Of a DNA stretch of 64,000 nucleotides, positions 11,900 through 61,613 are shown in pieces; the first letter of the stretch is position 1, and each line of letters starts with the position of its first letter. The notes under the pieces are model-generated. The model was not told the DNA's origin, searched no databases, and saw only the letters and a list, made by a program, of their open reading frames with translations. The position numbers and the translations under genes were made by a program. This stretch comes from Diplonema papillatum (Eukaryota; Euglenozoa; Diplonemea; Diplonemida; Diplonemidae). Location of the stretch: contig JAPJBO010000134.1 of assembly GCA_030068145.1 (NCBI GenBank), positions 186,001 to 250,000 on the forward strand, given 5' to 3'.

Positions 11900-12484
11900 T
11901 CATGCCTTTCCGCGTCTTGCGGCGGCTACACTGGACCTTCGCGTGTTCGACATGCCGAGGTCGCGTTGGAGCACGTCGAGATAGGAACGCGGAGGTCGTG
12001 CAAGAAGCACGCTCGACGCGGGCTGGTCCGCCCTCAGGCAGTGCCCACCGAAGCGGAGCCGCTGCATTCTCTGCAACTCCACTTCAATCCTCGGGAACTG
12101 ATCCGCAAAGAGGTCAGTATTGCTACAGCGCGCTTCGCGACTATAGACCTTAATGCCTCGAACAAACCGAACAAGGCAAGTGCAAACTCCCGTGATCTCA
12201 GGAAGCAGGGAAGTGCCAACGATCCAAGTTTCGGCGCCTGACAGAAAGACGGGAACCACGAGCGTTTTGAAAAACAAAACCTTTAGGTCGAACGCCTGAT
12301 CGTGGACCGCCAAACAGACTTCAGCCTGTGTACTGCTACCCAGGCCAAAGACTTGTCCGTAGGAAATCCGCTCTGCTGCTGCTGTCCACGAGCATGGAGC
12401 CGAGGTATTTGTAGTCCGGAACCTCACGGAGGGAGGCCCCATCAGGGTGGAACATAAGATCTGGGCCTCGGGGCCAAGGGCCAA
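11900..12484 (-). pseudogene. Non-LTR retrotransposon (LINE) ORF2 C-terminal fragment
   Basis: The minus-strand frame contains FFKTLVVPVFLSGAETW, the familiar stretch downstream of the reverse transcriptase core in LINE ORF2 proteins (lfk.lV.pvLlyGaEtW), followed about 70 residues later by LRFGGHCLRAD, another recurrent C-terminal motif. The catalytic reverse transcriptase core is not present and no long upstream frame joins it, so this is a truncated relic. The plus-strand ORFs across the same interval are shadows. Confidence 0.65.
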
Positions 12485-12520
12485 GCAGGGGTTTTAGGTT
12501 TTTTTTGGGTGGACACCAGA

Positions 12521-12653
12521 TTCTCTAAGGTGAAATGGTCAAAACCTCCTGGGAAATTGGGGCGAAAAAAAATTTACGAAGCGCGGTTTTTAGGTCATTC
12601 CGGCACTCAAAAAAATTTTTTTTTCGCTGACTTTTTCCCTACAGACCACCTTC
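12521..12653. mobile_element. Small MITE copy, ctctaaggtg family
   Basis: It starts ttctctaaggtgaaatggtc and ends near gaccacctt. The AT-rich core holds two A/T runs. A better preserved relative lies at 36926-37065. This copy has lost part of its right end. Confidence 0.5.
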
Positions 12654-12738
12654 GCCGCCAGGTTTTACCGGTAGGTAGGTTTCAGTAAAAATGCAAGTAC
12701 ATGGCCCTACCCGCACGACTCCGGGTCCGAGCTTCACC

Positions 12739-12816
12739 CCCCGCCGAACGGTACGGTAAATCAAACTGCTTGCATGGGGGGTCCGGGGGGCAGCCCCCCC
12801 GGGGCACGGTACGGTA
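12739..12816. repeat. GC-rich palindromic module ending in ggtacggta
   Basis: Two adjacent motif copies: a ccgccgaacggtacggta end at about 12741, and a full module at about 12776-12816 with ggggggtccgggggg, a short loop, cccccc and cacggtacggtac. Related modules occur at 10188, 10790, 29088 and 29817. Confidence 0.65.
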
Positions 12817-12839
12817 CACAACAAACAGGTGGCCTTACA

Positions 12840-13640
12840 GGCTTACACTCGAATTTGGCGGTTTGTGACGGTCGAATTTGGCCTGGTTACGTCGTGTGAT
12901 GCTGTGTGACGGTCGATATTGGTCTTTTTACGCCGCGTGATGCTGTGTGACAGGGGAAGGTCCGGGAGGGCTCCATCCGGCGCACGGTAGAAGGGATGCT
13001 GGCTTGGCAAGCTAGCTGAGATTTCCAGCAGAATTGTCCTGTTAGCCGTTTATGGTACGAAATGTCCTTCGCTTGACGAGTCATTAGCACGTCTGAACTT
13101 CACCAGGGCTTTCGATATTGACTTGTCTCTAGGTTTTTGCAGAAAGGTATGCTCGCTGGAACACGGGACAGGCGCGATGACCCGCAGACAATACTCGAAG
13201 CTCATGCATGTTCATCGGCTCTACCTCATGAAGGGCTCAGACACACTTTGTAGACGAGCCTGCCACCCTCGTTCGCCACTGGCCAAGGCTCACTGCTGTA
13301 GCTCGGTTGGTTGCAAATTAAGCTCATCTGCACCATCGGGGAGTGGATGTGTTTGGTCGTTCCATGCCTGTACAGGATGGTCTTATTGCACCTTGCTAAG
13401 AGCTAAGAAAAAAACGGCGAGAGCACGAAGGCTTCTGCGTCATCAGACGAGACTGTCTCCCAGCGTCGGGCTTGCACAAAAAGTATGCCGCGGTTAGTAC
13501 GTGATCGTGAAGCTAGTTTCCTCCAGAATACGCTAGCAAAATCATTTGTTTTTGTTTCTGCAATAACAGAACCCGAGCTGAACTCAAGGGATGTCGTTTG
13601 CTCGACACTAACGTTCTTGCAACGAGAAATCTCTGCGTCA
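12840..13640. other. Intergenic DNA downstream of the giant ORF
   Basis: No supported gene. A short degenerate direct repeat (gtgatgctgtgtgac) lies at 12893-12953. I searched by eye for a terminal inverted repeat matching the other side of the giant ORF and found no convincing pair. Confidence 0.4.
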
Positions 13641-13647
13641 CCTCTGC

Positions 13648-16600
13648 TCATTCGTCGGACCGGGACGAAGACGGGGACGAGGACGAGGACGAGGACGAGG
13701 AAAGGGAAGAGGAGGACGAACCGCAAGACGTAGAATCTTCCTCTGTCTCTTCTTCATCTTCTTCAACTTCTTCAACTTCTTCTTCTTCTTCAAATGCAGT
13801 CAACACTAAAACTGCCTTCTCGAAGAGAGTCTTTCCGTCAGCGGCAAACCTGACATTAACTGCCTCCAGTTTTTCCCACTTGGAATCTGGAGCCGGTTCT
13901 GTCTTCTTCCGGCTGTCACCAGCGGCCCGTCGACGTTTCTGCGCCCACCAAAGTCTACTTCCGGTCTCGATGAGCTCCCTTGCAGCAGCATCATCCCTCG
14001 GACCGTTTTTCACCAACATCAGCTCTGCACTGACGCTTGGCACTTTCGTCCGGTTGCGTACTGAGGGCAGTCGCGCCCGCATCTGACCGAAGTCACGCTC
14101 TACGCCGGCGCTACTAGCGCACGTGCAGCAGATGGCAACTTGCACCACGCGCGGGACATTTTCTGTCATGTCCGCGTACGAGGCCAGTCGCTCCGACCAG
14201 AACTGCAATGGGTTCGGTGCGCCCGAACTCTTCTTGAAGGCTATGGCTGCAGCCTTTAGAGTCTGCCACTCCTGCAACAGACTCTTTGGCGGTACGTCAG
14301 CAAAGGAGCACAGACTCTCCCACGCGTCATTCCTGAAGCCTGGTTGCCGTAGTTCCGCCTCTTTGCAGAGAACACAGCTTACGACCAGGTTCGCAAGCAC
14401 CACGTGTTCCGAAAGGACTACTTCCGGGACCATAAGTTTGGTTATGTCCTGGTGAATAGCCCGAAACCTTTTCGGAACGGTGTTGTCGATGGCCATTTTG
14501 CACAGTCGCATTTGAGTATTGCGAACGGCTCCTTCTATCTCGCAAGCCAGTCCTGCTTCAAGCTGGGCAACAAGCTGCGGGGAGGCAATTGTACGAAACA
14601 ATTCGTGCAAATACTTCAGATCCGAAGCGAAGGAGGCTTTCTGCAAGCGGTCACAGAGCTTTCCTCTTTTCAGAAGCTTTACCTCCATGTCTGCAGCTTG
14701 GCTTTTTTTTTTTGATTTCTTCGTCTTCGCCCGGCTGAAGAGTTCCCTGTCACTCAATACAGCCAGCCATCCCTCCCGCATGCCAGGGGTGCAAGCGTTG
14801 GCGAAAGACCTCTCCCACTTCTTCATCCAACGAATGCGCCAGCTCGCGTCCGGCTTTGGCATCTTATGGCCCATCGCGTCCTCGAGAGCCCGGCGAAGAA
14901 GATTGCTTCCCCGAAAGATGCTGTTAATCTGGCGGAGCACAGACGTCATGTCTTTAAACGCTGGGCAGTCTAGCAAGATTTTCATCTTGACCTGCATTCT
15001 GTGTGCAGCGTCCATGCTCATCGCCAGAGACCGCCCAGCCGCCTTCCCCATCAACGCCGCGGCACCGTTGTCGCAACCTGTCATCGTCGATCCGTCGTCC
15101 GAGCTCCACCCATATACGTGACGAGGATGCAGGCTCATCTGCTTCAGCACTTCGTCTATGGCGGCAAAGGCTGCCTCTCCAGTTGCACCAAACTTCTTCT
15201 TTTTGTTCGTCTTCTTCGTGGCTGTCGGGGCGGATGTCTGCCCCTTAGCAGTTGAGCCCTTCGGAGCTGGCTTGGCAGCAGCTTTTCTGTTCGAGCTTTG
15301 CACTTTCGGGGTTGGTGCCGGCTTGGCAGCAACCTTCTCGCTCGACTTCGAACAGCGCGCTTTCGAGGTTGTCGTTGCTTGCCCCTTTGCAATTGTCGGC
15401 TTGACAGTGACCGCAGGCTTGTTCGCGGACGAGGGCTCCGACGCAGATGGAGGTGGCAAGGGTCCTCTGGCAGCGAAGAACGCGGTGATGGGTTTGACGC
15501 CTAAAGCAGCTGCGACGGCAGACGGGGTTTGTACCGCCGCCTTCGGTGTCTTCGCCGTCGGTGGAGCAGCTGCGTTCTTCTGCTTTGGGATCCTCGTGCC
15601 CTTAAGCCTCGGTTTTCGTGCTGGGAGCGCGACGGCCGATACTAGGCCGACGAAAACTTCCTTCACCAGTAGTGGCGACGACAAGTCTACCCACCGCAAC
15701 CGGACGGCCAAGACTTCATCACCACAATGCGGCAACGAGGAACCGTCGACCACAACGAACAAAGGCGGTACGCACTTCGGTCCACGTGACAGTAGATCCT
15801 GTCGTAGCCGAAACAAGAGCAGTTTCGCCCACACGCCGATGAGCTCCCGGATGTCTCGTCGGAGCCCGTGCCTCTTTGTGACGGCGGTTCCTTGCAGCTG
15901 CTCGCCCCACAATTGGTGAGCGATCTGGCGGTGGCTGAGACCACCCATGACACCGACATAGGCACGGGCATTGAGATTGTAGAGTGGTGTCTCAAGCCTT
16001 TCGTCTGTACGCAATGGCAAGATGCGGTCTTCGGTGTTTGAATGCCGCTCGGGCCGGGAGGGTACGCCCGCTACCGCAGTGCGGACGCTTCGAGCTTTCA
16101 ACACCGTGAGCGCAGCGACGTGGCCACACTTCTTCAAGTGCTTCGTCCGCGACTTCTTGGCGGGCGGAGCCGACCAGTTCTGCTCTACCCCGAATGCGTA
16201 TGCAGCCGCCTTAGCACTAGTCGGATAGGGGACGGCCTTCAGGAGGATAGCTGTTCTGCACACTTTGCAAAACGTTGTCTTCCCTTCCACATCGAAGCAG
16301 TCTTCTCCTGTCAACTCATACAGAGGACTCTGCGAAGCCGTTGGGTTGACGAATCTACCCTCTGATATCGTGAGCTCCTCTTGGCAACGAAGCTGGGACA
16401 GTTTGCAAAGTCGAACAACGAAACAGTGATCGCCCTTGAACACGCAGAAAGCTTTGGACCGGTCTTGCAGCTTGTCGACTTTCTCGAGGAGAGATGCGAC
16501 CGAAAGGGCACCATCGATGTCCACGGCACTAAAACTGTGAAGGTTCAGCTTCTCCCGGAATTCGGTGAACGACTTCAACAAGGGAATGTAAGAGAGGGGG

Positions 16601-19600
16601 GTGAGACACTCCGTTGCTATGGCGTCGGCGTATGACTGTCTGTCCCGTTCGTCAACGATGAACTGACCGGCACGTGACCACCACTCCGCCAGCATGGACG
16701 TGTTTGGGTTCGCAATAGGTCTTCCTTCCTGCAGTGCGTTCACAACGTAACCCACAACGTACGTGCTGGCATGCAGCCGAGGGTCGACAGCGGAGAACCC
16801 GTTATTGCCTGCAACGGCGCCGCGTTCACGTAAGCCATCAGCCACCGCTTTTTGCAATGCGCCGGGGCGCGAGTCGTACACGTGAAATTCCCAACCCTTC
16901 AATGAAGGGCCAAATTCACGTTGGTCGTTGGAGCGGGTTGGATCGGATTTCAACGCTGTCTTCTGACTTTTCCGCGGAGGACTTGTGTCAGGGTATGGGG
17001 GGCGGTCACCTGGACACAGGACTGTGGGTTCATCCTCTGCCTTTACACCCAGGCGGGCCCGGATCACCCCGAAACAGTCAGGACACGCACAACACGTGCA
17101 TTCTGAGCAGCGCCAGCCGTCTCTGCAGTTCTTGCCACAGACGTTACATATCCACAGACTGTCATCCGGGCACTTTCGCTTCGCAGAAAAGCCTCTCAAA
17201 CGGAAGTGGCCGTTGCATTCCAGACATCCGAACACCTTTTCTTCGGACGTGTTGGACTTTGCCTCAGGAAAAGGATGAAGCGAGTCTTCTGGACTGGCGA
17301 TAATATCCTCCTCCATCGCGACGACGGTAAGAGGTAGCTGTAACTCGGACGGCAAGCACACGTACATGTACTGATCACATGCCACATGGCCTGCTTCTGC
17401 GGAAATGCGCACGATGTTCCTCGCCGCAAATGTGGCAGTGTCGGATGGGGGACCTGTGAAAAGCAGGTGTAACAGCTGTGCGAAGTCCAGGTATCCCAAC
17501 TTATTGGCAGCCGCGAATTTCTGCACAATGTTGGCACTTGACTGGTTCTCCGAAGCGTAGCTGAAAAACTCTGCTACGTCTCGGATCTGAGTCCTCGTTA
17601 ACGCATGCGAATGGCAATGATGAGCTGCCACCGCACTGACCAACATGGACTCGCTGACGCTCGGACGTACGTCCAAGACCTCCACATCTACGACGGTCTC
17701 CAAGCGCTTTACCAGCTGATCGGCAGCTGCGCTTCTCCGGCATCCAATGGTGACCCGAACAGGTTTGGGTATCGGTACCGAAGTCGAGGTCAACAAGGTA
17801 TTGTCGGGGTCTGGACTGATCACATTTTTCGATGCGACGGTTGTGCTAGATAGCACACTTTGGCGTCTGTCTGAAGCGTTGAGGAAGCGTGGCAGTACTG
17901 GAACGGCCAAAATCTCCACCGTCTCTTTTCCAGTGTCGGCGTCGATACTCGAGCGAGTCAACTGAGTGAAATTACGCTCGAGACCCTGGACGAGGGTCGG
18001 CTGCATGCGGGAGCTGCCTTGCAGAGACGGCATTCTCACGTAGATGAAGTGCCCGGTGCGAGACTTCATCTCTGCCATAGACGGAACAAACACGATGTTG
18101 TGATTTGTTCGCCACGTCTCCTCACCTTTGAGTATGGCCCACAACTTCGCAAACGGCAGGTAACCAAGACCTCTTGTCGCCGCAAAGTTCCGCACATCAC
18201 GGCAAGGAATGCCGGCACCCGAGATGGTATCGAGGGTCAAGCCGTAATCAGCAGCACATGCGTTTAATGCTGCATGTGCGATGTCAGCAAGTTGGCACCG
18301 TTTCGTTGCCACAACACTTGCATATAAAGCGCACGTATTGCCCTGTTGCACGCTCTGAAAGCATGTCGCAGTGTCCCATGCCGAAGCCATGCACCGAGCC
18401 AGCTGCGAAGAGAAGTTATTTCCCCACTCTGGCAACGAGTCAACGACTGCGAACGTAACGTTCTGGTGCACCCGGCGAAGCATCACAACGTAGCCGTCTT
18501 CGCGGAAGCTTCGGACGCAAGTCTTCCATTCGACACACCTTGACTCTGCGTCATTGCGCATTACCCACTTTCCGTTTTCCTTCAGGAAAGCAACGTTGTG
18601 GCCACTGAGCAAGTCCCTTCCAAGATGCGTCACAAACCCAACAACCTCAAACTCGTCTTCTGGGGCCACGGTCACGGTCTGAGTGAGGGTCACGGGTGTG
18701 CACCTCTTCGCTGTCCCTTTCGCAGTCAAGGCGTACCGCTTCAGCATGACGAAAACGGTATCTTCCAATGTAACTTTGTCTGTTACATTTGTTGTGGAGT
18801 TTTGCTTGCACGCAGGACACGTATACTCTTCCAACAACGTCGGTAGAGTTGAAATGCAACCTTTGAGGTGCCATTCAAAGGTTCTCGCGAAACCGGAAGA
18901 TCGTTCGAGCGCGATTTGAAGCTCCGTGACCGGTTCAGGAGTCACGCTTGCATGTGTACAGCTTGAGCAAGACTTCGTGCTCAAAAGCGTGTTTGCGAAG
19001 CGACCGTCGGTCTGCTGGCGAATCCTGGTCAGGATCTCGTGCGCATCATGCATCGCGTACTCCGTGCCTGCCGGGAACATGACTTGCCGCAAGTCAAGAG
19101 CTCGTGTCTGAACTTCGGTGTCAGTCTTGTTTGACCGGTATGCCTCAACTGTCTTCCTAATTACGGCTGCCAAGGGGGTCGGAGGCTGGGTCTGATTGGT
19201 TAGCTGGTTCAAATAGCCAGTGTCCCTGATCAGCAGTTGGAGAATGGCATTGATGCAACACGTGTTCTTTGTGTTTGCAATGCCCCTCCCGGCAGTGGCT
19301 TCAGGATCGTAGGACCCTGATTCATCAACGCCGGGGTAAACGGCAGAAGGCCTGTCTGTGGTAGCCCGACTTTCAGGGTTGTGGCTCGGCGACTTCTTCA
19401 ACGCGGTAGCTGTAGCAGAACGCTGCGCACTGACACCCATCGAAGGGCGAACTGCTTCAGGCACCTCGATGTTAGGCGGAGTCCATGTGCGGGCTTCGGC
19501 ATCGTTGGCAAGCTGCTCGTACGCGACCGAATACACCACAGTGGCAGCTGCAGCAGCAAGGTCCGGACTTGAAGCTGAAGAGTCTGAGGTCGACTTTGCC

Positions 19601-21195
19601 TTCGATGTGGATATGACATCGCGGGGCGGCGTCATCGCACCTGGTGTTGGTGCAGTCTTGGGCAGTGTATCGACAGGCGAGGAAGGGGTGCTCTGGGTGG
19701 ACAGGGAAGCAGCCGTATTGGGGCTACCTGTATTCGAAGTTGGTGCGACGAAAGCAAATTCGGGAAGTGGCTCCGGTGAAAGGTTGCTTATGTGCACTGG
19801 CGACTCTGCTGTGCTGAGATAGCTTTGCAAAGCAGCAGGCAAGGTGAGAAGTCGAAGGCCGAGGAGGTGCTGAAAAATGGCAACCTGAGATGTACTCGTA
19901 GGCCCCTGTACAACTCGGTTCAGCGTCGCAGTAGGCGCGTCGAAAAGCCAGGCGTGACTATTAGTCAACTCGGCGCAAAGGCGTAACGAGTTCACTTCGT
20001 CGTCCGTGAAACGTTCAACACCACTTCCCTGCAAGGAACAGCCGGAAGGGGGCACAGCTTTGTAAACGGCTGTCTGCAAGTTCGTCCGGTCCGGGAACAA
20101 CACCTCGAAACCCTCCACGATGCTCGAGACAGGAACGAACGAGCCTTCAAGCCGCATCCATTCGGCATCGAAGAAAGCGACGAGGTCGACCGGACTTGTC
20201 GGCCGGACAGCGGTACAAGGAGTGGCTGATGCACCTGTCACACGAGCAGCATCGCCGTTCATCGATGGAGCATCGGTGGTCGGTGTTCTCAGCGCGCAGG
20301 CGGGTGCAGTCGGTGCAGGTGTTGCAGGTGCAGCCGGCGCGGATGCAGGTGCCGTCGGCGCAGCTGATCCACCACGATCGCATCCCGAGCTGGCACTGAT
20401 CGAAATTTCGGACCCTGACACCTCCGTCAGCGGCAAAGTGAGCACACTTAGTACACTCGACACTTGGTCGACGGAAACACTTCGCGAAGACGGCGGGCAC
20501 ATGGAAGCATCGCATGGCATCACGTCGTCAACTTGCACCAGTTCCACCTCTGGGATATCGAGAGGCAAGTCGGTTTGGGTCCCTACATCCCTTGCGCACA
20601 CCAACTTTTCGGCATTCTCATGCAGTTTCGGTTGCCTTGTGGCTTTGTCCAGAGCATTGTGTAGGTGCCGCAGCTCCTCCTCTTGTCGATGTACCGTCGT
20701 CTTCAGCGCCGCCACAGCCTTCTCGAAATTCTCAAGTACTTCACCGACTCTTCCCGTTGCAGAGCCGCCGACACGGTCGGTGTCCAATGCGACAGGACTT
20801 GTGCGGCGTCTTTTGCACGGCGTTTCCGGCGAGCTCTGCGTTGTGCAGGGTAGCCGAAGGCTCTCCACCGACTGACGCAACGCTGGTGATCGGTGAGCCA
20901 CCAGTAGGAGGGCAGCGAGCTTGGCGGGGGCCGGCACGACAGAGGTCGTGACTGTCTCCCCTAGCACCGTCGACAGGCTGCTGCGCAGGAACTGATCGTC
21001 GCCCCGCAAGCTCCCGCAAAACCGGGTGCTCCACTCTTCGATTTCTGAGTGGCGGAGCTTCCTTCTTGAGAACGCCGACCCCGTCAGCTTCTGCCAAGTA
21101 CTGCCCAACTTTGCAGGCAGAGACACAAGCCACGGATCGGTGTAATCGCCGAAGTTCAGTCCTGAGTTAAGACCTAACTCAACATTGTTTGGCAT
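13648..21195 (-). CDS. Giant hAT-like transposase fused to a USP deubiquitinase (2515 aa)
   Basis: One unbroken frame. Approximate layout: coiled coil 145-190; USP (peptidase C19) domain 638-907 with a Cys box (NTKNTCCINA, nucleophile near 645), Zn-ribbon CxxC pairs and a His box (GHNVAFLKENGKW, near 865); two diverged copies of another domain at about 945-1056 and 1140-1270, sharing LGYLPFAKL / LGYLDFAQL and an NIV stretch; a Cys-rich finger cluster 1323-1375; a BED-like finger about 1635-1690 (FCKVC...KHLKKCGH); an RNase H-like core with VVVDGSS near 1815, a low-complexity insert, SSDDGSTMTGCDNG near 2033 and DAAHRM near 2063; a hAT-type C-terminal region about 2340-2400 (SSAGVERDF, then RNR). 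The tail is acidic and Ser-rich. hAT transposases are usually 600-900 aa. The start Met lies about 50 bp below a TATTTAAA box. DNA transposition and ubiquitin removal are inferred from the domains. Confidence 0.85.
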   Translation of the reverse strand: MPNNVELGLNSGLNFGDYTDPWLVSLPAKLGSTWQKLTGSAFSRRKLRHSEIEEWSTRFCGSLRGDDQFLRSSLSTVLGETVTTSVVPAPAKLAALLLVAHRSPALRQSVESLRLPCTTQSSPETPCKRRRTSPVALDTDRVGGSATGRVGEVLENFEKAVAALKTTVHRQEEELRHLHNALDKATRQPKLHENAEKLVCARDVGTQTDLPLDIPEVELVQVDDVMPCDASMCPPSSRSVSVDQVSSVLSVLTLPLTEVSGSEISISASSGCDRGGSAAPTAPASAPAAPATPAPTAPACALRTPTTDAPSMNGDAARVTGASATPCTAVRPTSPVDLVAFFDAEWMRLEGSFVPVSSIVEGFEVLFPDRTNLQTAVYKAVPPSGCSLQGSGVERFTDDEVNSLRLCAELTNSHAWLFDAPTATLNRVVQGPTSTSQVAIFQHLLGLRLLTLPAALQSYLSTAESPVHISNLSPEPLPEFAFVAPTSNTGSPNTAASLSTQSTPSSPVDTLPKTAPTPGAMTPPRDVISTSKAKSTSDSSASSPDLAAAAATVVYSVAYEQLANDAEARTWTPPNIEVPEAVRPSMGVSAQRSATATALKKSPSHNPESRATTDRPSAVYPGVDESGSYDPEATAGRGIANTKNTCCINAILQLLIRDTGYLNQLTNQTQPPTPLAAVIRKTVEAYRSNKTDTEVQTRALDLRQVMFPAGTEYAMHDAHEILTRIRQQTDGRFANTLLSTKSCSSCTHASVTPEPVTELQIALERSSGFARTFEWHLKGCISTLPTLLEEYTCPACKQNSTTNVTDKVTLEDTVFVMLKRYALTAKGTAKRCTPVTLTQTVTVAPEDEFEVVGFVTHLGRDLLSGHNVAFLKENGKWVMRNDAESRCVEWKTCVRSFREDGYVVMLRRVHQNVTFAVVDSLPEWGNNFSSQLARCMASAWDTATCFQSVQQGNTCALYASVVATKRCQLADIAHAALNACAADYGLTLDTISGAGIPCRDVRNFAATRGLGYLPFAKLWAILKGEETWRTNHNIVFVPSMAEMKSRTGHFIYVRMPSLQGSSRMQPTLVQGLERNFTQLTRSSIDADTGKETVEILAVPVLPRFLNASDRRQSVLSSTTVASKNVISPDPDNTLLTSTSVPIPKPVRVTIGCRRSAAADQLVKRLETVVDVEVLDVRPSVSESMLVSAVAAHHCHSHALTRTQIRDVAEFFSYASENQSSANIVQKFAAANKLGYLDFAQLLHLLFTGPPSDTATFAARNIVRISAEAGHVACDQYMYVCLPSELQLPLTVVAMEEDIIASPEDSLHPFPEAKSNTSEEKVFGCLECNGHFRLRGFSAKRKCPDDSLWICNVCGKNCRDGWRCSECTCCACPDCFGVIRARLGVKAEDEPTVLCPGDRPPYPDTSPPRKSQKTALKSDPTRSNDQREFGPSLKGWEFHVYDSRPGALQKAVADGLRERGAVAGNNGFSAVDPRLHASTYVVGYVVNALQEGRPIANPNTSMLAEWWSRAGQFIVDERDRQSYADAIATECLTPLSYIPLLKSFTEFREKLNLHSFSAVDIDGALSVASLLEKVDKLQDRSKAFCVFKGDHCFVVRLCKLSQLRCQEELTISEGRFVNPTASQSPLYELTGEDCFDVEGKTTFCKVCRTAILLKAVPYPTSAKAAAYAFGVEQNWSAPPAKKSRTKHLKKCGHVAALTVLKARSVRTAVAGVPSRPERHSNTEDRILPLRTDERLETPLYNLNARAYVGVMGGLSHRQIAHQLWGEQLQGTAVTKRHGLRRDIRELIGVWAKLLLFRLRQDLLSRGPKCVPPLFVVVDGSSLPHCGDEVLAVRLRWVDLSSPLLVKEVFVGLVSAVALPARKPRLKGTRIPKQKNAAAPPTAKTPKAAVQTPSAVAAALGVKPITAFFAARGPLPPPSASEPSSANKPAVTVKPTIAKGQATTTSKARCSKSSEKVAAKPAPTPKVQSSNRKAAAKPAPKGSTAKGQTSAPTATKKTNKKKKFGATGEAAFAAIDEVLKQMSLHPRHVYGWSSDDGSTMTGCDNGAAALMGKAAGRSLAMSMDAAHRMQVKMKILLDCPAFKDMTSVLRQINSIFRGSNLLRRALEDAMGHKMPKPDASWRIRWMKKWERSFANACTPGMREGWLAVLSDRELFSRAKTKKSKKKSQAADMEVKLLKRGKLCDRLQKASFASDLKYLHELFRTIASPQLVAQLEAGLACEIEGAVRNTQMRLCKMAIDNTVPKRFRAIHQDITKLMVPEVVLSEHVVLANLVVSCVLCKEAELRQPGFRNDAWESLCSFADVPPKSLLQEWQTLKAAAIAFKKSSGAPNPLQFWSERLASYADMTENVPRVVQVAICCTCASSAGVERDFGQMRARLPSVRNRTKVPSVSAELMLVKNGPRDDAAARELIETGSRLWWAQKRRRAAGDSRKKTEPAPDSKWEKLEAVNVRFAADGKTLFEKAVLVLTAFEEEEEVEEVEEDEEETEEDSTSCGSSSSSLSSSSSSSSSPSSSRSDE

Positions 21196-21749
21196 TTTGT
21201 TACATGGAGTTTAGAAGCGGTGACTGAATTTTGTTTTTTCGTTGTCTTTAAATACTCAAGTTCGAAGCGCAAACAGAACCCGAACTTTTTCCAAAACACG
21301 AACTGACAATGATGGGACAGCTTTCTGAATTGTGGGCATCATGCGTGTGATGGGACAGCTTTCTGAATTGTGGGCATCATGCGTGTATGTATGTGGTGGG
21401 CTTGCAGTGCAACTTGGCACTAACTCTTGCGACTCGGAATCCGAGTCCCGACTCAGCGGACTCTCTCTAAATTGCTGGGGGCAGTGAAGAGGTTTCAGCT
21501 TCTTACGTTCGTAAGAAAATGCATGCAACCGTCAGGCTGGACCCAAAGTTTGGACACCGGAGCCCGGGCACGGAGTTCTGGGCGCACGCTGATTCGCGGC
21601 TGACATTTGCTGTTTACGAGGAAACGGGAAGAGATGCGTAGTTTTGTTGAGAAGTGGCTTTACGTTGGCGGACAAATAGTTTCGAGCGGCTGCTTAAAAG
21701 TGCGCTTCTTGACTTCCCGAGACTGGACAACTGGTTTCTGTGAGATTTT
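21196..21749. promoter_or_regulatory. Upstream region of the giant ORF with 38-bp tandem duplication
   Basis: Read on the minus strand, a TATTTAAA box lies near 21250, about 50 bp before the start codon. A 38-bp unit is perfectly duplicated at 21310-21347 and 21348-21385. A 17-bp palindrome gactcggaatccgagtc follows near 21431, and a ttcttacg/cgtaagaa hairpin lies near 21500. These could be promoter or transposase-binding elements; this is inference from position only. Confidence 0.45.
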
Positions 21750-21963
21750 TGTTTATTGCGGAAATTAACTTCGCCGAACTTTACGGTTTCCCGAACTATA
21801 ACTACTGCCTCCAGTTTCGCCCCGCGCCGGCCTTTAGCCGAGCACGTACTTCTTGCTGCGGTAACTGCCGGACGTTTTCCGTCATTTTCTGGTGGAAGAA
21901 GTCCTGGCAGGCGGCCCGAAGCAGTCCGGTCCGGTCCTCGGACTCCGGGTTTGCGGGCGGCGG

Positions 21964-22396
21964 TTATTTTTTTGGAGCGCGGGACACTGGATTTGCCATT
22001 TTGGTACAGCGGGGTTGCCTACGTCCGGTTGCTTTCCCGGAGCGGTAGTCCCAATGCATGCTTCTTCAGCACAGTGAACGCCACCTTCACTGTGACCTGG
22101 CTGGCCTGCTTTACAGGGCAGGTCCGACCAGGCGAAGAAACTCTACCACGACATTTTAAAAATTGTCTGAAGACCACGCGCTGTCGCATTTTTCCTCTCC
22201 TTTCCTTTTTGTTCTCCAAAGAAGACAGGATAGAAGGAAAAGGTGCCTCATCTAAAAAGAAAAAAAGGGCTGGCGTTCACTGTGTGCTGAAGAAGCATTT
22301 TTTTGGGCTCCCGCTCTGGAAGCAACCGGATACCGGTAGCCCCGCTGTACCAACATGGCTTGTACAGTGTCCCGCGCTCCAGAAAAAAAAAATTAT
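21964..22396. mobile_element. Foldback element, arms of about 120 bp
   Basis: The left arm (about 21964-22083) matches the reverse complement of the right arm (about 22268-22396). Shared blocks include ggagcgcgggacact, ttggtacagcgggg, tccggttgctt and cttcttcagcac. The 185-bp spacer ends with a LINE-like A-rich tail (22213-22266), so the foldback may carry a nested retro-insertion. Confidence 0.75.
22213..22266 (+). repeat. A-rich retroelement tail, copy 1
   Basis: It shares aggatagaaggaaaaggtg, cctcatct and a following A-run with 24357-24412, in the same orientation. A conserved segment ending in an A-run is typical of a LINE or SINE 3' end. Confidence 0.55.
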
Positions 22397-22399
22397 CAC

Positions 22400-22895
22400 C
22401 CGGTACTTTACGGGGTATAGGAGCCTCCCGGCCTCAGAGCAGGAGCAGTACTTCCGACCCTGCCCCCTCTGTGGACACCGGGTCCATAACTTCCTTCCAC
22501 ACATTTTCATCTCGTGTCGGCACGCGGAGTCGGGAGCAGCACGGGCAGCTATGTGGGACGCAGTTGGATTCGACAGGTCAGCCGCGATCGAAGTTCGCCT
22601 ATGGGAGCTGCTCTTCAAGCACCCGGAGGCAGCCCTGCGCTACTTGCAGCGGATCGATGTCATCCCGACATATGCGATACTGCGCAAGGACGCGGAGGCG
22701 GCTCGACCCCCATCTCTGGAGAGTCAGGAGCGAGAAGAAGAGCCCTCCCCGTACCTCTCCACTCGCACACCGGTCTCGTCCCCTGCGATGTCGTCGTCGT
22801 CCTCCTCGACGGAACCTGGCAACACGGGGGATGACGAACTAACTCCTCTCCCCAGCCAGTGGCGGCCGCGGGAGAGCGACTCTGAGTCCGGCTGA
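22400..22895 (+). pseudogene. Retroelement ORF C-terminal fragment with CCHC-like finger
   Basis: The frame ending at 22895 contains CPLCGHRVHNFLPHIFISC, a C-x2-C...H...C pattern found near the C-terminus of several LINE ORF2 proteins, followed by a Glu/Ser/Pro-rich tail. No reverse transcriptase core is visible upstream, and the foldback element interrupts the frame. The region to about 24412, with internal near-duplicate segments (for example 23232 and 23458), may be its 3' untranslated part. The assignment is tentative. Confidence 0.4.
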
Positions 22896-24356
22896 CGCAC
22901 TGAAGGCCGAAGGCATTGCACGACGCCGCATTCGAAGTCGACGCCGACGTGCCCGCACGGGCTTTAGCCACCTTCTTTGGGGAAAGATGGGGAAAAGTGT
23001 TTTGTTTCATTGAAAGAAGACCGCTCCGCGGTCGAGCCGCGGTGCTCCAACGGCCTTTCCTGACCACCCCGTACCGGGAGAGTCAGACTGTGCCCGGTCA
23101 CAGACCGCTGCAGAAAGAAAACTGCAGGAGAGTTGGGACTTGTGCGAGAGGCACACAACTAGTGTCGGACCTTACACGGTCCAACCGCCGACGACACATT
23201 GCCCCTCCAATGTCGGGCCCGTAGCCCGCAACAACCAACGTCTTTTTTTTAACGAACTCGGTGCATCGTGGCAGCCCTCCTGACCAACAAGCACAAGGTC
23301 AAAAACTGGGCGAGGCAGCTTATATCCGATCACTGGGTTGCAGATGAGATCCGTCGCGGGCACTGCCGTCACTGACGGCTTCAGGAACGGGCAACAGCGC
23401 CAGCGTCGACAACCAAAAAACGTTCTCACCAACTCCCCGTGCCCTACCTCTCGGTCCACAACCAACGTCTTCTTTCTGACTGGAACCTGATGCACCGCGG
23501 CGGCTCTCCTGACCACTCAGCTGAAGGTCAAGAACAGGAGAGACTGCTTGTTACCGGTCACCGGGTAGCGGGTAGGAAACCGCAGAAGAGCATCGAGTTG
23601 ATGCGAGTGGCGATCGACTGACACAGCCAGAACCACGTTCGTGAACAACGGGCACCATAGTCTGGCACAGAGCAGACCAAAACCCCACCACCGCGCCCTT
23701 CTTGTGTTTACCGCCTCCCGAAGTAACCACCCTCAAAAACAAGTGCCCCAGGGCCAGGCGGCCGCACACAGCGCCACCCGGAGCGAGCACGAAAGCGGCC
23801 ACGGCAGACACGCCACAGAGCGACGCCGCCGGCCGGGCGAAACGACGACGGCCCCAGAGACCAGGTGGTTACTTCGCGGAAGTACCAGCTCTTCTTCTCC
23901 ATAAAAGTCTTGAGTTCCATCATCTTTTCTCTTCCCCAAGGCCGGGGAGGCGGGGCGTGAAAACAGCCCCACTGTTCCCCCCAGCCAAAAACTGGCGAAA
24001 CGGGTGAGTCAACTCCCTGAGAAGACCACCGACACACCGCTGTGCCTGCGCTGAAACGAGTGCGGGACACGGCCCAAGCCACTCTGACAGCCCCCCAGAC
24101 GCAAACGCCCTGACTCAAACTCAGGGCTGGAGTCAAAAACCACCAGAAGAAGGCTGCAGAGCAGGCTAACCCTATGTTATCATAGCCATCCCTTGTCTTT
24201 CGTTACTTCCCCCCCTACCCACCCTTTCACCTGTTTTTCATTATCTTCCCGGCATAAGCAGCCCAGTAAAGCTGGCCTCTTCCTCTCCTTTCCTTTTTTG
24301 GGTTCTTCCTTTGATGACGGCACCACCGTTTGCGTTTGTGTGTTCTCATGTCTTCA
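22896..24356. repeat. Non-coding stretch with about 226-bp internal duplication
   Basis: Segments starting near 23232 and 23458 share acaaccaacgtctt, ctcctgacca, aaggtcaa and nearby blocks, which suggests an old tandem duplication. No supported gene. It may be the 3' untranslated part of the retroelement whose tail ends at 24412. Confidence 0.4.
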
Positions 24357-24412
24357 ATTTGTTTCCAAAAAAGAAAGGATAGAAGGAAAAGGTGCCTCAT
24401 CTAAAAAAAAAG
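24357..24412 (+). repeat. A-rich retroelement tail, copy 2
   Basis: Second copy of the aggatagaaggaaaaggtg / cctcatct tail, followed by an A-run at about 24402-24410. Confidence 0.55.
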
Positions 24413-24426
24413 ATTTTCGCAACACG

Positions 24427-24497
24427 TGGCAACGTGGTTGAGTCGCAAGGTTAGCGACTTCGAAGACACTGACGCGGGTTCAAACCCCGACGCCCGA
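24427..24497 (+). other. tRNA-like sequence (possible SINE head)
   Basis: Contains TGGTTGAGTCG, which fits a Pol III A box, and GGGTTCAAACCCC, which fits a B box / T-arm, at roughly tRNA spacing. The 5' and 3' acceptor strands do not pair and the anticodon arm is poor, so I do not call a functional tRNA. It sits between a retroelement tail and a satellite array. Confidence 0.4.
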
Positions 24498-24544
24498 TTA
24501 TTTTCAAAATTCCGTCGAATTTTTTCGCAGCACTCATCGAGCTG

Positions 24545-27500
24545 CTCGCAAAGGGCACTTTCTCCGCCCGGCGGCACAAGCGTGTTCTCGGCAAGAACAC
24601 ACGTGTGCTGCCACAATTTGGACGGAGACGTCAAAGTTCTGTCACTTTGAGAGGTGCACACGCGTGATCTCGGCCAGAACACGCTTGTGCCTCCACCTGA
24701 CTAAAATGGAAAAACGTCCAGCTGCCGGGATTGAACCCGCGTCTACAGCACCAAATTGCATCCAACAAAATTGCGACCGGCCAGAATACGCTTGTGCGAC
24801 CAGCTCGCACCCGGCGGCACAAGCGTGTTCTCGGCAAGAACACACGTGTGCTGCCACAATTTGGACGGAGACGTCAAAGTTCTGTCACTTTGAGAGGTGC
24901 ACACGCGTGATCTCGGCCAGAACACGCTTGTGCCTCCACCTGACTAAAATGGAAAAACGTCCAGCTGCCGGGCACAATTGCATCCAACAAAATTGCGACC
25001 GGCCAGAATACGCTTGTGCGACCAGCTCGCACCCGGCGGCACAAGCGTGTTCTCGGCAAGAACACACGTGTGCTGCCACAATTTGGACGGAGACGTCAAA
25101 GTTCTGTCACTTTGAGAGGTGCACACGCGTGATCTCGGCCAGAACACGCTTGTGCCTCCACCTGACTAAAATGGAAAAACGTCCAGCTGCCGGGATTGAA
25201 CCCGCGTCTACAGCACCAAATTGCATCCAACAAAATTGCGACCGGCCAGAATACGCTTGTGCGACCAGCTCGCACCCGGCGGCACAAGCGTGTTCTCGGC
25301 AAGAACACACGTGTGCTGCCACAATTTGGACGGAGACGTCAAAGTTCTGTCACTTTGAGAGGTGCACACGCGTGATCTCGGCCAGAACACGCTTGTGCCT
25401 CCACCTGACTAAAATGGAAAAACGTCCAGCTGCCGGGATTGAACCCGCGTCTACAGCACCAAATTGCATAACAACAAAATTGCGACCGGCCAGAATACGC
25501 TTGTGCGACCAGCTCGCACCCGGCGGCACAAGCGTGTTCTCGGCAAGAACACACGTGTGCTGCCACAATTTGGACGGAGACGTCAAAGTTCTGTCACTTT
25601 GAGAGGTGCACACGCGTGATCTCGGCCAGAACACGCTTGTGCCTCCACCTGACTAAAATGGAAAAACGTCCAGCTGCCGGGATTGAACCCGCGTCTACAG
25701 CACCAAATTGCATCCAACAAAATTGCGACCGGCCAGAATACGCTTGTGCGACCAGCTCGCACCCGGCGGCACAAGCGTGTTCTCGGCAAGAACACACGTG
25801 TGCTGCCACAATTTGGACGGAGACGTCAAAGTTCTGTCACTTTGAGAGGTGCACACGCGTGATCTCGGCCAGAACACGCTTGTGCCTCCACCTGACTAAA
25901 ATGGAAAAACGTCCAGCTGCCGGGATTGAACCCGCGTCTACAGCACCAAATTGCATAACAACAAAATTGCGACCGGCCAGAATACGCTTGTGCGACCAGC
26001 TCGCACCCGGCGGCACAAGCGTGTTCTCGGCAAGAACACACGTGTGCTGCCACAATTTGGACGGAGACGTCAAAGTTCTGTCACTTTGAGAGGTGCACAC
26101 GCGTGATCTCGGCCAGAACACGCTTGTGCCTCCACCTGACTAAAATGGAAAAACGTCCAGCTGCCGATTGAACCCGCGTCTACAGCACCAAATTGCATCC
26201 AACAAAATTGCGACCGGCCAGAATACGCTTGTGCGACCAGCTCGCACCCGGCGGCACAAGCGTGTTCTCGGCAAGAACACACGTGTGCTGCCACAATTTG
26301 GACGGAGACGTCAAAGTTCTGTCACTTTGAGAGGTGCACACGCGTGATCTCGGCCAGAACACGCTTGTGCCTCCACCTGACTAAAATGGAAAAACGTCCA
26401 GCTGCCGGGATTGAACCCGCGTCTACAGCACCAAATTGCATCCAACAAAATTGCGACCGGCCAGAATACGCTTGTGCGACCAGCTCGCACCCGGCGGCAC
26501 AAGCGTGTTCTCGGCAAGAACACACGTGTGCTGCCACAATTTGGACGGAGACGTCAAAGTTCTGTCACTTTGAGAGGTGCACACGCGTGATCTCGGCCAG
26601 AACACGCTTGTGCCTCCACCTGACTAAAATGGAAAAACGTCCAGCTGCCGGGATTGAACCCGCGTCTACAGCACCAAATTGCATCCAACAAAATTGCGAC
26701 CGGCCAGAATACGCTTGTGCGACCAGCTCGCACCCGGCGGCACAAGCGTGTTCTCGGCAAGAACACACGTGTGCTGCCACAATTTGGACGGAGACGTCAA
26801 AGTTCTGTCACTTTGAGAGGTGCACACGCGTGATCTCGGCCAGAACACGCTTGTGCCTCCACCTGACTAAAATGGAAAAACGTCCAGCTGCCGGGATTGA
26901 ACCCGCGTCTACAGCACCAAATTGCATCCAACAAAATTGCGACCGGCCAGAATACGCTTGTGCGACCAGCTCGCACCCGGCGGCACAAGCGTGTTCTCGG
27001 CAAGAACACACGTGTGCTGCCACAATTTGGACGGAGACGTCAAAGTTCTGTCACTTTGAGAGGTGCACACGCGTGATCTCGGCCAGAACACGCTTGTGCC
27101 TCCACCTGACTAAAATGGAAAAACGTCGGGATTGAACCCGCGTCTACAGCACCAAATTGCATCCAACAAAATTGCGACCGGCCAGAATACGCTTGTGCGA
27201 CCAGCTCGCACCCGGCGGCACAAGCGTGTTCTCGGCAAGAACACACGTGTGCTGCCACAATTTGGACGGAGACGTCAAAGTTCTGTCACTTTGAGAGGTG
27301 CACACGCGTGATCTCGGCCAGAACACGCTTGTGCCTCCACCTGACTAAAATGGAAAAACGTCCAGCTGCCGGGCAAATTGCATCCAACAAAATTGCGACC
27401 GGCCAGAATACGCTTGTGCGACCAGCTCGCACCCGGCGGCACAAGCGTGTTCTCGGCAAGAACACACGTGTGCTGCCACAATTTGGACGGAGACGTCAAA

Positions 27501-27555
27501 GTTCTGTCACTTTGAGAGGTGCACACGCGTGATCTCGGCCAGAACACGCTTGTGC
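24545..27555. repeat. 243-bp satellite, about 12 units, with minus-strand tRNA-like T-arm
   Basis: Recurring landmarks are spaced 243 bp (for example 26311, 26554, 26797, 27040). Single-base insertions give 244-bp units, and 7-22-bp deletions over the T-arm block give shorter ones (near 24970, 26165, 27125, 27372). Most units carry, on the minus strand, GCGGGTTCAATCCCGGC, a good T-arm / Pol III B-box match, preceded by ttggatgcaatttgg. The parallel ORFs on both strands arise because 243 is a multiple of three. The array probably grew from a tRNA-related SINE (inference). Confidence 0.9.
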
Positions 27556-29058
27556 CACCTCGGGAAATTGTCCAAATAGGTTTTCCGACCTCGAAACCCA
27601 GCATTGGAAAATTGTCCCACCTCGGGAAATTGTCCAAATAGGTTTTCCGACCTCGAAACCCAGCATTAGAAAATTGTCCCACCTCGGGAAATTGTCCAAA
27701 TAGGTTTTCCGACCTCGAAACCCAGCATTGGAAAATTGTCCCACCTCGGGAAATTGTCCAAATAGGTTTTCCGACCTCGAAACCCTGCATTGGAAAATTG
27801 TCCCACCTCGGGAAATTGTCCAAATAGGTTTTCCGACCTCGAAACCCAGCATTGGAAAATTGTCCCACCTCGGGAAATTGTCCAAATAGGTTTTCCGACC
27901 TCGAAACCCAGCATTAGAAAATTGTCCCACCTCGGGAAATTGTCCAAATAGGTTTTCCGACCTCGAAACCCAGCATTAGAAAATTGTCCCACCTCGGGAA
28001 ATTGTCCAAATAGGTTTTCCGACCTCGAAACCCAGCATTGGAAAATTGTCCCACCTCGGGAAATTGTCCAAATAGGTTTTCCGACCTCGAAACCCAGCAT
28101 TAGAAAATTGTCCCACCTCGGGAAATTGTCCAAATAGGTTTTCCGACCTCGAAACCCAGCATTAGAAAATTGTCCCACCTCGGGAAATTGTCCAAATAGG
28201 TTTTCCGACCTCGAAACCCAGCATTGGAAAATTGTCCCACCTCGGGAAATTGTCCAAATAGGTTTTCCGACCTCGAAACCCAGCATTAGAAAATTGTCCC
28301 ACCTCGGGAAATTGTCCAAATAGGTTTTCCGACCTCGAAACCCAGCATTGGAAAATTGTCCCACCTCGGGAAATTGTCCAAATAGGTTTTCCGACCTCGA
28401 AACCCAGCATTGGAAAATTGTCCCACCTCGGGAAATTGTCCAAATAGGTTTTCCGACCTCGAAACCCAGCATTGGAAAATTGTCCCACCTCGGGAAATTG
28501 TCCAAATAGGTTTTCCGACCTCGAAACCCAGCATTAGAAAATTGTCCCACCTCGGGAAATTGTCCAAATAGGTTTTCCGACCTCGAAACCCAGCATTAGA
28601 AAATTGTCCCACCTCGGGAAATTGTCCAAATAGGTTTTCCGACCTCGAAACCCAGCATTGGAAAATTGTCCCACCTCGGGAAATTGTCCAAATAGGTTTT
28701 CCGACCTCGAAACCCAGCATTAGAAAATTGTCCCACCTCGGGAAATTGTCCAAATAGGTTTTCCGACCTCGAAACCCAGCATTGGAAAATTGTCCCACCT
28801 CGGGAAATTGTCCAAATAGGTTTTCCGACCTCGAAACCCAGCATTGGAAAATTGTCCCACCTCGGGAAATTGTCCAAATAGGTTTTCCGACCTCGAAACC
28901 CAGCATTGGAAAATTGTCCCACCTCGGGAAATTGTCCAAATAGGTTTTCCGACCTCGAAACCCAGCATTAGAAAATTGTCCCACCTCGGGAAATTGTCCA
29001 AATAGGTTTTCCGACCTCGAAACCCAGCATTGGAAAATTGTCCCACCTCGGGAAATTG
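27556..29058. repeat. 62-bp satellite, about 24 units
   Basis: Highly uniform units ggaaattgtccaaatagg...cccagcattrgaaaattgtcccacctc. Positions alternate between ttgga and ttaga, so neighbouring units form subtypes. The array directly abuts the 243-bp satellite: a truncated 243-bp unit runs into the first 62-bp unit at about 27553-27560 through shared cacct. The long minus-strand ORFs here are by-products of the repeat lacking stops. Confidence 0.95.
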
Positions 29059-29087
29059 TACAGGGGGGAGAGGGGCAGCTGAGGCTC

Positions 29088-29135
29088 AATGTACCGTACC
29101 GTCTCCCGGGGGGCGGTGCCCCCCGGACCCCCCCC
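29088..29135. repeat. GC-rich palindromic module
   Basis: Reads gtaccgtaccgtctcccgggg, a short loop, then ccccccggacccccccc. It is the same module as at 10188, 10790, 12776 and 29817, here in opposite orientation to the first three. Confidence 0.7.
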
Positions 29136-29309
29136 TATATTAAAACTCGCGAGAGAAAACGGGGTTGGTGTCTATTCTGAAGGGAAAAACGGGCTGCATA
29201 AGGTTCTGGCCCCAAACCCCGCTCGCAAAAAAAAAAAAGAAATCGCCGCTGCGCGGGCCACCGGAGGAACACCTATAATTGGGGGTGGCGTTCGGCGTCC
29301 GCTTATTTC

Positions 29310-29757
29310 GACCCAAGGCGTTACATGTCGAATTCGACTCCAAAGTAGCGTGACACGAGCGTGACATGTCAAATTTGACTGTAACGTAGCGTTACACGAG
29401 CGTGACATACCAAATATGACTGTAAATTAGCGTTACCCGAGCGTTACCTGCCCAATTCGACCGTAAAGTAGCGTGACACGAGCGTGACATGTCAAATTTG
29501 ACTGTAACGTAGCGTTACATGAGCGTGACATACCAAATATGACTGTAAATTAGCGTTACCCGAGCGTTACCTGCCCAATTCGACCGTAAAGTAGCGTGAC
29601 ACGAGCGTTACATGTCGAATTCGACTCCAAAGTAGCGTGACACGAGCGTGACATGTCAAATTCGACTGTAACGTAGCGTTACATGAGCGTGACATACCAA
29701 GTATGGCTGTAAACTAGCGTTACACGAGCGTTACCTGCCCAATTCGACCGTAAAGTA
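29310..29757. repeat. 41-bp tandem repeat with 123-bp higher-order pattern
   Basis: Units follow gtagcgtgacacgagcgtga, then catgtcaaatttgactgtaa. Three subtypes alternate (catgtcaaatttgac, cataccaaatatgac, cctgcccaattcgac), giving a repeating trio of about 123 bp, of which three or four are visible. No gene is supported. Confidence 0.85.
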
Positions 29758-29816
29758 CCTGCTGGAACGGGTCGCCGAGTGGTGTGGCCCCCGGACCGCT
29801 CATTTCGAGCAAACTC

Positions 29817-29866
29817 ATGTACCGTACCGTTCGCCGAGGGGCGAAGCCCCCCGGACCCCCCCCATT
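29817..29866. repeat. GC-rich palindromic module
   Basis: Starts atgtaccgtaccgttcgccg and continues to ccccccggaccccccccc. It is a direct repeat of the module at 29088, and the pair flanks the 41-bp tandem array. Confidence 0.7.
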
Positions 29867-30124
29867 GTCGTGAGGCTGGTAAGGCCACCAAAAAAAACCC
29901 CCAAAAAGGACCTCACCGTAGGCGGGGGTCAAGGGCCAAGCAAAGTTCCAGGCTGGGCCCCATCTGGACGCGCCATTTCTCAAAAAAATCTTACGTTCTT
30001 TCTCAGCTTTTCAATTGGTAGTCATGCCAAATGGTCCGAGAAATACTCGAGGGGAATGAAAAAAGGGACGGGACATCAGTCCCGATCACGCTCTTCACCC
30101 AGCTCACCGCATCCGACCTATCGA

Positions 30125-32945: not shown

Positions 32946-32979
32946 AAACCGCCGGATAGCTCGCAGAAGAAATAGAAAC

Positions 32980-33615
32980 CTGGAACAGGACATCTGCAGC
33001 CCACTGGGTGCCGTCACCACCGACGACGTACAGGTGGTTGATGCCGAGGGCCACGCAACGGTCGATGATGAAGTCGGGCTTGAAGCCGCCGCGGCCAGCG
33101 CCGAGGATGGACCCGCCTTTTTGATGGATCTCCTCCACGACCGCCGGCGTCAAGATGACGGGCGGGTACTTCTCCGTGTCGAACCCGTTGTACCCGAACC
33201 GGATGCCGAGCACCTTGCCGGGGGTCCTCACGCCGTAGTTGTTGTACAGGCCGATGGCCACGTCGCGGATGACGCTGTTCAGACCGGGGCAGAGCCCGCC
33301 GCAGGTGACGATGGCGGCCTTGATCTCTTGGGGGTCCCACAGGATTTTCCGGGTGGGCCCCGCCCGCAGGACGGTGTACGAGCTCACGGCCCGCGAGCCC
33401 GCGGGGGCGAGGATGTTCGTGAACACTGACTCGTCGTCCTGGTGGAACTTCATGCCGGGGAACTTCTTCATCATCGGGTTCTCCTGCACCGTCGCTTTGG
33501 CCCAGTTCGACACGAGGTGGTTCTTCAGAGAAGTGCTGCCGAGCGCGTCGGCTGCGTGCACTGGGCTCGCGTTCCCATCGATATCGAACGCGAGCTGCGA
33601 GTAGAGTGCCTCCAT
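32980..33615 (-). CDS. ATP-dependent 6-phosphofructokinase, exon 1
   Basis: Phosphofructokinase phosphorylates fructose 6-phosphate to fructose 1,6-bisphosphate in glycolysis. This exon starts MEALYSQLAFD and holds AAIVTCGGLCPGLNSVIR (nucleotide-binding glycine loop), GIRFGYNGF and GGDGTQWAA. GGDGT rather than GGDD, together with PKTIDN in exon 2, points to the ATP-using plant/trypanosomatid group. Splicing 33615-32980, 31331-31272 and 30924-30445 gives 392 residues with GT-AG junctions all in phase 0; introns are 1648 and 347 bp. Complete relatives are about 440-550 residues, so the C-terminus is missing. A Met upstream on another exon cannot be excluded. Confidence 0.88.
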
Positions 33616-61500: not shown

Positions 61501-61613
61501 CAAGCATTTGGAGCAGCAAGATGTTCCGCGCGACAACGTGGGGCTCCACGTCGTTGCACGTGAACACGATACGCTTCGGCAGGCGTCCGCGGTTCGTGTG
61601 CAACGTGAACAAC
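58560..61613 (-). CDS. DUF4470 domain protein with C-terminal TPR-like repeats
   Basis: The visible exon opens after a atgcag acceptor (61614-61615) with FTLHTNRGRLPKRIVFTCND, VEPHVVARNILLLQMLA (the lND....ARNilLL signature of DUF4470, related to the N-terminus of the dynein assembly factor DNAAF3) and later LYDVVTTSNVADVVGILALL, the characteristic SN.aD..G segment. The end holds TPR-like helices (LKELANVWVKEKEFSLAIEG, YRTALRAL) and stops at TGA 58562-58560. The frame changes three times, near 60224, 59731 and 58727; each is repaired by one base in a short homopolymer (ggg, ccc, cc). This looks like base-call error rather than decay, because the protein reads well throughout. N-terminal exon(s) lie beyond 61.6 kb. 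The large plus-strand ORF across 58.3-59.8 kb is an antisense shadow. Confidence 0.72.

Follow-up and report, generated by a model that had tools for sequence, protein, structure and literature searches.

A giant hAT-type transposon of Diplonema papillatum with a ubiquitin-specific protease domain in its predicted transposase protein

Introduction

Does a ubiquitin-specific protease (USP) that shares one open reading frame with a hAT-like transposase form part of the transposon's own protein, and what might such an element gain from a deubiquitinase-type enzyme? This question is raised by a 2515-codon frame in a 64,000-nt window (the whole stretch of DNA analyzed) of contig JAPJBO010000134.1 of the marine flagellate Diplonema papillatum. 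Coordinates given below are those of the window, and residue numbers are those of the 2515-aa protein. hAT transposases of the Ac, Hermes and Charlie types usually comprise 600-900 residues, and a BED-type zinc finger is common among them, yet not universal. The transposons of the KDZ group (Kyakuja-Dileera-Zisupton) are large, and some of them carry Ulp1. The locus described here joins a deubiquitinase-type domain to a hAT-type transposase, and this pairing was kept while two families diverged. With the protein encoded in one frame and both ends defined, the system lends itself to a simple assay of two components, the ends and the protein.

Results and Discussion

One frame joins a USP domain to a hAT-type core

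The 2515-codon frame that the initial annotation had described at 13648..21195 lies on the minus strand and runs from ATG to stop without an internal stop. When the 2515-aa protein was compared with Pfam, UCH/PF00443 was the only family at E<=1. The match (E 7e-13; 49.2 bits against a curated cut-off of 23.9) marks a USP (peptidase C19) domain at residues 637-903 (18487..19287, minus strand, as for all further parts of the protein). The annotation had reported USP Cys and His boxes together with zinc-ribbon CxxC pairs, and had proposed the UCH profile search that gave this match. Indeed, the catalytic residues are in place (Cys646 in NTC, His866 in SGH, Asn881/Asp882), the CxxC pairs of the zinc ribbon are C743/C746 and C793/C796, and the boxes align with those of USP36 and USP5, which together with USP21 are the solved structures closest by sequence. 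The domain shares the catalytic boxes and the zinc ribbon with the USP family at large. A protein database search with the USP part returned no match at E<=0.001 among the best 7987 candidates by shared words that were scored.

Next in the chain comes a second Cys/His domain (residues 915-1109; 17869..18453), followed by a weak second match to it (residues 1176-1291; 17323..17670; 25.8% identity, E 6.5e-5). The translation then reveals a cysteine-rich, zinc finger-like stretch at residues ~1321-1385 (17041..17235), which has no Pfam match at E<=1, and a conserved domain at residues 1432-1640 (16276..16902) that aligns with a related family of the same genome, termed family 2. Pfam gave no match at E<=10 for residues 1366-1649. 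The C-terminal part is formed by a BED-like zinc finger (residues 1643-1692; 16120..16269) of the pattern C1643-x2-C1646...H1686-x5-H1692 and by a hAT-type core (residues 1805-2449; 13849..15783) with D1817, D2033/D2034, DAAH 2062-2065, RW 2122-2123 and E2366 (in VERDFG). In the NCBIfam search P0001 and P0002 had no match, and the Rfam search of the window yielded none at the gathering score. As far as sequence can tell, we consider the anatomy of the protein and of the surrounding element, as described here and below, to be very probably correct.

A second Cys/His domain follows the USP

The second Cys/His domain carries the motif VQxGx(T/S)C...GHFIY and is papain-like by motif only. Compared with a frame in another repeat of the genome (L015), it showed 32% identity over 195 aa. 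Its Gln, Cys955 and His1049 are kept in all three aligned frames, family 2 among them. For this domain Pfam gave nothing above cut-off, and the PDB gave nothing at E<=10. The initial annotation had left out this domain, as well as the element ends and the USPs in retroelements of the same genome that are described below.

Two Cys/His domains N-terminal to the core, in a protein far longer than ordinary hAT transposases, could be processing proteases that cut the 2515-aa chain into parts, including a free transposase. Against this role, USPs cleave after ubiquitin or its relatives, and the Pfam comparison (E<=1) brought up no domain of the ubiquitin type anywhere in the chain. Moreover, it is by its motif only that the second domain resembles a peptidase, and the searches yielded no relative of it. 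We regard self-processing as quite improbable.

Further repeated families, with frames of 1791 and 1815 aa, were seen to carry the second Cys/His domain as well. They occur on contigs C3, C29, C394, C590, C2462 and others, and at L015:7680-9899.

The ends of the element

The whole transposon spans 17,513 bp (12443..29955), with the minus strand as coding strand. Its left end is set by the loss of homology, as similarity among core-bearing copies drops abruptly at 12443, and its right end is common to the copy on contig C270. The octamer GGCCCCAT stands directly before the left end (12435..12442) and again directly after ...GTTCCAGGCTG at the right end (29956..29963), forming a target site duplication. 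The terminal inverted repeat CAGGGTGGAACAT (12443..12455, plus strand) pairs with CAGCCTGGAACTT (29943..29955, minus strand), and 10 of 13 positions are equal between the two ends. The 5'-CAG start of these inverted ends is hAT-like. In the C270 copy the same right end is followed by GTGGGGGT, which also precedes its left end. A perfect 8-bp duplication was therefore found in both copies for which the two flanks were compared (window and C270), with one of the octamers being of low complexity.

Left ends were compared at 17 of the 20 loci L018-L037, leaving out L028, which starts inside the element, as well as L029 and L034, which are without an exact anchor. The left end starts with CAGGGTGGAACATAAGATC in all 17 loci, among which L019 is the window itself.

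Both ends carry subterminal 41-bp repeats, identified with TRF: about 2 copies at 12864..12951 (plus strand) and 10.7 copies at 29318..29757 (minus strand). The two arrays are similar in inverted orientation, with a local score of 33, where 2000 shuffles gave scores of up to 22. Further inward lie a 243-bp tandem array (24511..27556), common to the copies on C72, C270 and C238, and a 62-bp tandem array (27550..29059; TRF) common to the C270 copy.

Some additional features of the window were recorded. The C72 copy lacks the segment 22263-24411, position 22397 being joined there to 24404. It has no full-length match in four other copies examined and is flanked by a 48-bp repeat of 94% identity. 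About 3 kb from the element, a phosphofructokinase-like frame (32947-33615, minus strand; PF00365, E 2e-16) is probably a host gene. A frame at 59786-61651 (minus strand) matches DUF4470 with E 1.8e-6.

Assignment to the hAT type

The BED-like finger, the acidic RNase H-like motifs and a hAT-type C-terminal region had all been named in the initial annotation, and they fared differently. The motifs D, D, (C/D)xxH, RW and E, a set (D-D-(D/C)xxH-RW-E) that we take to be the hAT RNase H-like core, are all present and are invariant in family 2. For the finger, the C, C, H and H of the pattern C-x2-C...H-x5-H are invariant in three aligned rows from the two families, but the Pfam zf-BED profile matched neither the whole protein (E<=1) nor its parts (E<=10). 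For the C-terminal region, the proposed search with PF05699 gave no match for the 801-aa core at E<=10, nor did any other Pfam family. The hAT reading of this region draws instead on the motifs, the 8-bp duplications and a hAT-like best foreign protein.

This protein emerged from a database of 5.8 billion proteins, of which 7995 candidates were scored. The core sequence alone found one Diplonema gene model; the core profile found the gene model and, among these 7995 candidates, one foreign protein, P0007 (E 1.8). P0007 itself matches Dimer_Tnp_hAT with 19.1 bits (cut-off 21.4) and DUF4371 with 17.2 bits (cut-off 32.1), both below threshold. In the C-terminal hAT region, hhalign aligned the core with P0007 at E 2.6e-5, a value for a single pair in which P0007 had been chosen beforehand as the best match. 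With the same prior choice, the score was 24.7 bits, and shuffling P0007 2000 times gave no more than 5.7. Against the PDB, phmmer found for the core one unrelated match (E 0.66) and the alignment profile found none. Likewise, the core profile revealed no similarity to L052, another hAT of the same genome (E 0.23).

With the hAT superfamily, the element shares the 8-bp duplication, short inverted ends starting with CAG, subterminal repeats, the D-D-(D/C)xxH-RW-E order and, by pattern, a BED-like finger and a C-terminal ...SSxxxER.F... region. It is unlike the superfamily in the 2515 aa of its protein, its length of 17.5 kb, the USP and the extra domains, and the lack of a Pfam Dimer_Tnp_hAT match. 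Duplications, ends and motif order mark it as hAT-type, with the finger assigned by pattern only.

Among the candidates scored, the sole strong match to the hAT core in the protein database is P0006, a D. papillatum gene model annotated ClpB1, the second half of which is part of the core. This is perhaps an insertion into a gene or an annotation error. Contig C386 also has a copy of the element.

Copies and recent movement

All copy counts given here are lower bounds. Among the matches listed for the 801-aa core query, 13 rows were 100% identical (rounded) over the full length and one further row, on contig C592, was 96% identical, the window's own row being included. Seven of these 14 full-length rows lie in frames of at least 2520 aa, while the other seven lie in frames of 1279 to 2417 aa. 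The USP query (316 aa) similarly gave 14 stop-free rows at 100% among the matches listed, one of them being the window itself. At least 22 contigs (from 40 rows per end), including that of the window, have a left and a right end in matching orientation. The end-to-end spans range from 1568 to 24,180 bp on 21 of these contigs and reach 55 kb on C518, where they probably do not delimit a single element. Three short forms with both ends measure 1568, 1568 and 1570 bp, as expected for internally deleted elements that were moved in trans.

The near-identity of so many copies points to recent movement of the element. The D. papillatum assembly may contain artificially duplicated repeats, according to PMC10161547, and assembly duplication may contribute to the near-identity of the copies. 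The same concern bears on the frame itself, which could be an artefact or a chance product in which two neighboring genes were fused by error; the identical flank of L020 and L027 would fit such a view. However, the flanks otherwise differ in the 17 loci compared, the frames of at least 2520 aa recur in half of the full-length core rows, and family 2 has the same domain order. In view of the copies with different flanks and of family 2, an assembly fusion was rejected, and we hold it to be very improbable. The pairing of a hAT-like transposase with a USP in one frame, as initially annotated, finds support in the ends of the element, in its copies and in family 2.

Between the window and the C592 copy, 945 codons gave a dN of 0.016 and a dS of 0.048 (31 synonymous and 31 non-synonymous codon changes). 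Since the C592 copy is a mosaic that is nearly identical to the window upstream of the core, the ratio bears on the 3' part of the ORF only, and it indicates that this part has been under constraint.

A second family keeps the domain order

The initial annotation had suggested a search for paralogues, and in the same genome this uncovered a second family that combines a USP with a hAT-type core. Family 2 is represented by contig C637 with a frame of 2794 aa, of which 2647 aa (L046) were used in the comparisons. It has the USP, the second domain and the core in one frame and in the window's order. By BLAST, the window and family 2 are 24% identical over 482 aa in the USP stretch (second domain included), 33% over 455 aa in the region before the core and 37.9% over 459 aa in the core, for which the genome search gave 41%. 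The UCH match of family 2 (28.3 bits, E 1.6e-6) is above cut-off, and the Cys, the His and the Asn-Asp of its USP are conserved. Since domain order and catalytic USP residues are both kept in family 2, the fusion appears to be old and maintained.

These data bear on the idea that the USP is a catalytically dead module that binds ubiquitin. Some USP folds lack activity, and the activity of the one described here is a prediction. On the other hand, the catalytic Cys, His and Asn/Asp and the four zinc cysteines have been kept in two families that are 24% identical in this stretch, which makes a dead module improbable. That two families so far apart have retained the catalytic residues is the strongest argument for the USP being of importance to the element.

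Other fragments in the genome are ~41% identical to family 2, which suggests that more families of the giant hAT-type element exist.

A possible role for the USP in transposition

The best explanation of the findings as a whole, which we would put at a probability of about one half, is a hAT-type transposon with a USP that acts in cis. It would be a recently active, giant and autonomous DNA transposon of the hAT type, encoding one long protein in which a USP and a second Cys/His domain are followed by a cysteine-rich region, a BED-like finger and a hAT core of the DDE/RNase H-like kind. Finger and core would bind the element ends with their 41-bp subterminal repeats, and would excise and insert the element, leaving 8-bp target duplications. 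The USP would strip ubiquitin in cis from the transposase and its complex, and would so keep them from being degraded by the proteasome or extracted until the element has been excised and inserted. In this way, the USP would protect a very large protein at work. Movement by the ORF protein, binding of the ends and USP activity are predictions of this model, and the choice of the transposase and its complex as the substrate is, taken by itself, a tentative proposal. Such an arrangement suggests that the element interferes with the protein-tagging system of its host. The same idea of a protective deubiquitination has been put forward for the VTDs of Helitrons in PMC9741609 (accessible part).

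The main rival to protection in cis is an action of the USP on chromatin or repair factors, such as ubiquitinated histones, PCNA or Ku, at the sites of excision and insertion. USP36, a protein with nuclear roles, is the closest solved relative by score, but the similarity is weak (E 1.1e-5), and no targeting feature was seen beyond the putative DNA-binding half of the protein. For transposases with Ulp1 or OTU domains, Bao et al. (PMC2836005) propose that these domains may serve to activate repair factors downstream. We consider an action on chromatin or repair factors to be rather unlikely, if well worth keeping in mind.

Relation to known protease-bearing transposons

KDZ transposons are likewise large elements, some with a protease, but theirs is of the Ulp1 class and that of the window element is a USP. 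A KDZ assignment was rejected: no Pfam match was obtained to the KDZ or CxC domains, whose names we take to mark this group, for the whole protein at E<=1 or for three parts of it at E<=10.

Cysteine proteases of the ubiquitin/SUMO world are encoded by other mobile DNA as well. The accessible parts of PMC2836005 and PMC9741609 describe Ginger1 and Mutator elements with Ulp1 or OTU and Helitrons with OTU or VTD; both the protease families and the transposition enzymes differ from those of the window element. Closer to it is the Trichomonas protein XP_001314237.1, reported in the accessible part of PMC2836005 as transposase_11 plus peptidase C19. As in the window element, a USP-class peptidase is fused to a DNA transposase; the transposase is, by this published description, transposase_11 instead of a hAT-type enzyme. 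In view of the Ulp1, OTU, VTD and C19 transposons in print, the window element is a variant among known protease-bearing transposons.

The initial annotation had been aware of no USP in any standard hAT family. For hAT families this agrees with the open-access PMC papers listed in the literature search, none of which showed a USP in an element of the hAT or the Penelope-like type. It has to be qualified by the published fusion of C19 with transposase_11. The main text of PMC10161547, as far as accessible, does not contain the terms hAT, Penelope or ubiquitin, and the DNA transposons that it names include TATE, MULE and Helitron. Similarly, hAT and ubiquitin are absent as whole words from the accessible main text of a review of giant transposons (PMC6431247). 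Within this literature, the presence of a USP in one chain with a hAT-type transposase is new, while ubiquitin/SUMO-type proteases in other transposons are known.

USPs in other mobile elements of the genome

A genome profile search with UCH, in which 149 rows were scored, led to USPs in a second class of mobile elements besides the DNA transposons, an unexpected distribution within a single genome. As many as 112 of the 149 rows have one profile span (1-240 or 2-240) and rank below the top 34. A reverse transcriptase (RT)-like match lies less than 1 kb upstream on the same strand in 64 of the 112, and the other 48 are without one among the 81 RT-like rows scored. Nine of the 112 rows were examined (L009-L017): five (L009-L012 and L017) have frames of 1562-1585 aa and four (L013-L016) are cut. 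In those of the frames that were scanned or read, RT-like motifs stand between GIY-YIG, close to the N-terminus, and a USP at the C-terminus. The GIY-YIG profile (cut-off 22.6) scored 26.4 bits with the N-terminal part of L009, 22.9 with the whole L009 frame and 22.4 with the L011 frame. RVT_1 reached 12.6 bits in frames of the L009 type, against a cut-off of 29.6, and the PDB gave no match at E<=1. The translation of the USP-bearing frame contains GIPMGANASP and FIDDLL, which we take to be RT motifs. Penelope-like elements with an N-terminal GIY-YIG are known (the Chlamys/Naiad groups), and we read the L009-L017 type as Penelope-like elements with an N-terminal nuclease.

We compared 13 USP rows in a tree: two hAT, three Penelope-like (two further ones were left out) and eight termed host-type, these being the rows that matched UCH best (L001-L008). 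A branch (89/98, not starred) divides the host-type rows from the USPs of mobile elements. The latter stand on very long branches without a resolved order, and the two hAT USPs are not together. In this weakly resolved tree, the long branch of the window USP, apart from the eight host-type USPs, distinguishes it from its family, as does the fusion to a transposase.

It is conceivable that at least two giant hAT-type families and two Penelope-like families either captured their USPs separately or exchanged a USP cassette, because these enzymes counter a ubiquitin-dependent defense with which the host restrains mobile DNA; we consider this scenario unlikely. Together, the USPs of hAT-type elements and retroelements make the old idea of a ubiquitin pathway in transposition testable, and they raise the question of whether diplonemids restrain mobile DNA via ubiquitin.

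USPs that are 26-28% identical to that of the window were also noticed in repeated frames of 1513 aa (C9, C24 and C61) and 1448 aa (C510, C10 and C74). On C510, three USP-bearing repeated frames lie in a row, 5726 bp apart.
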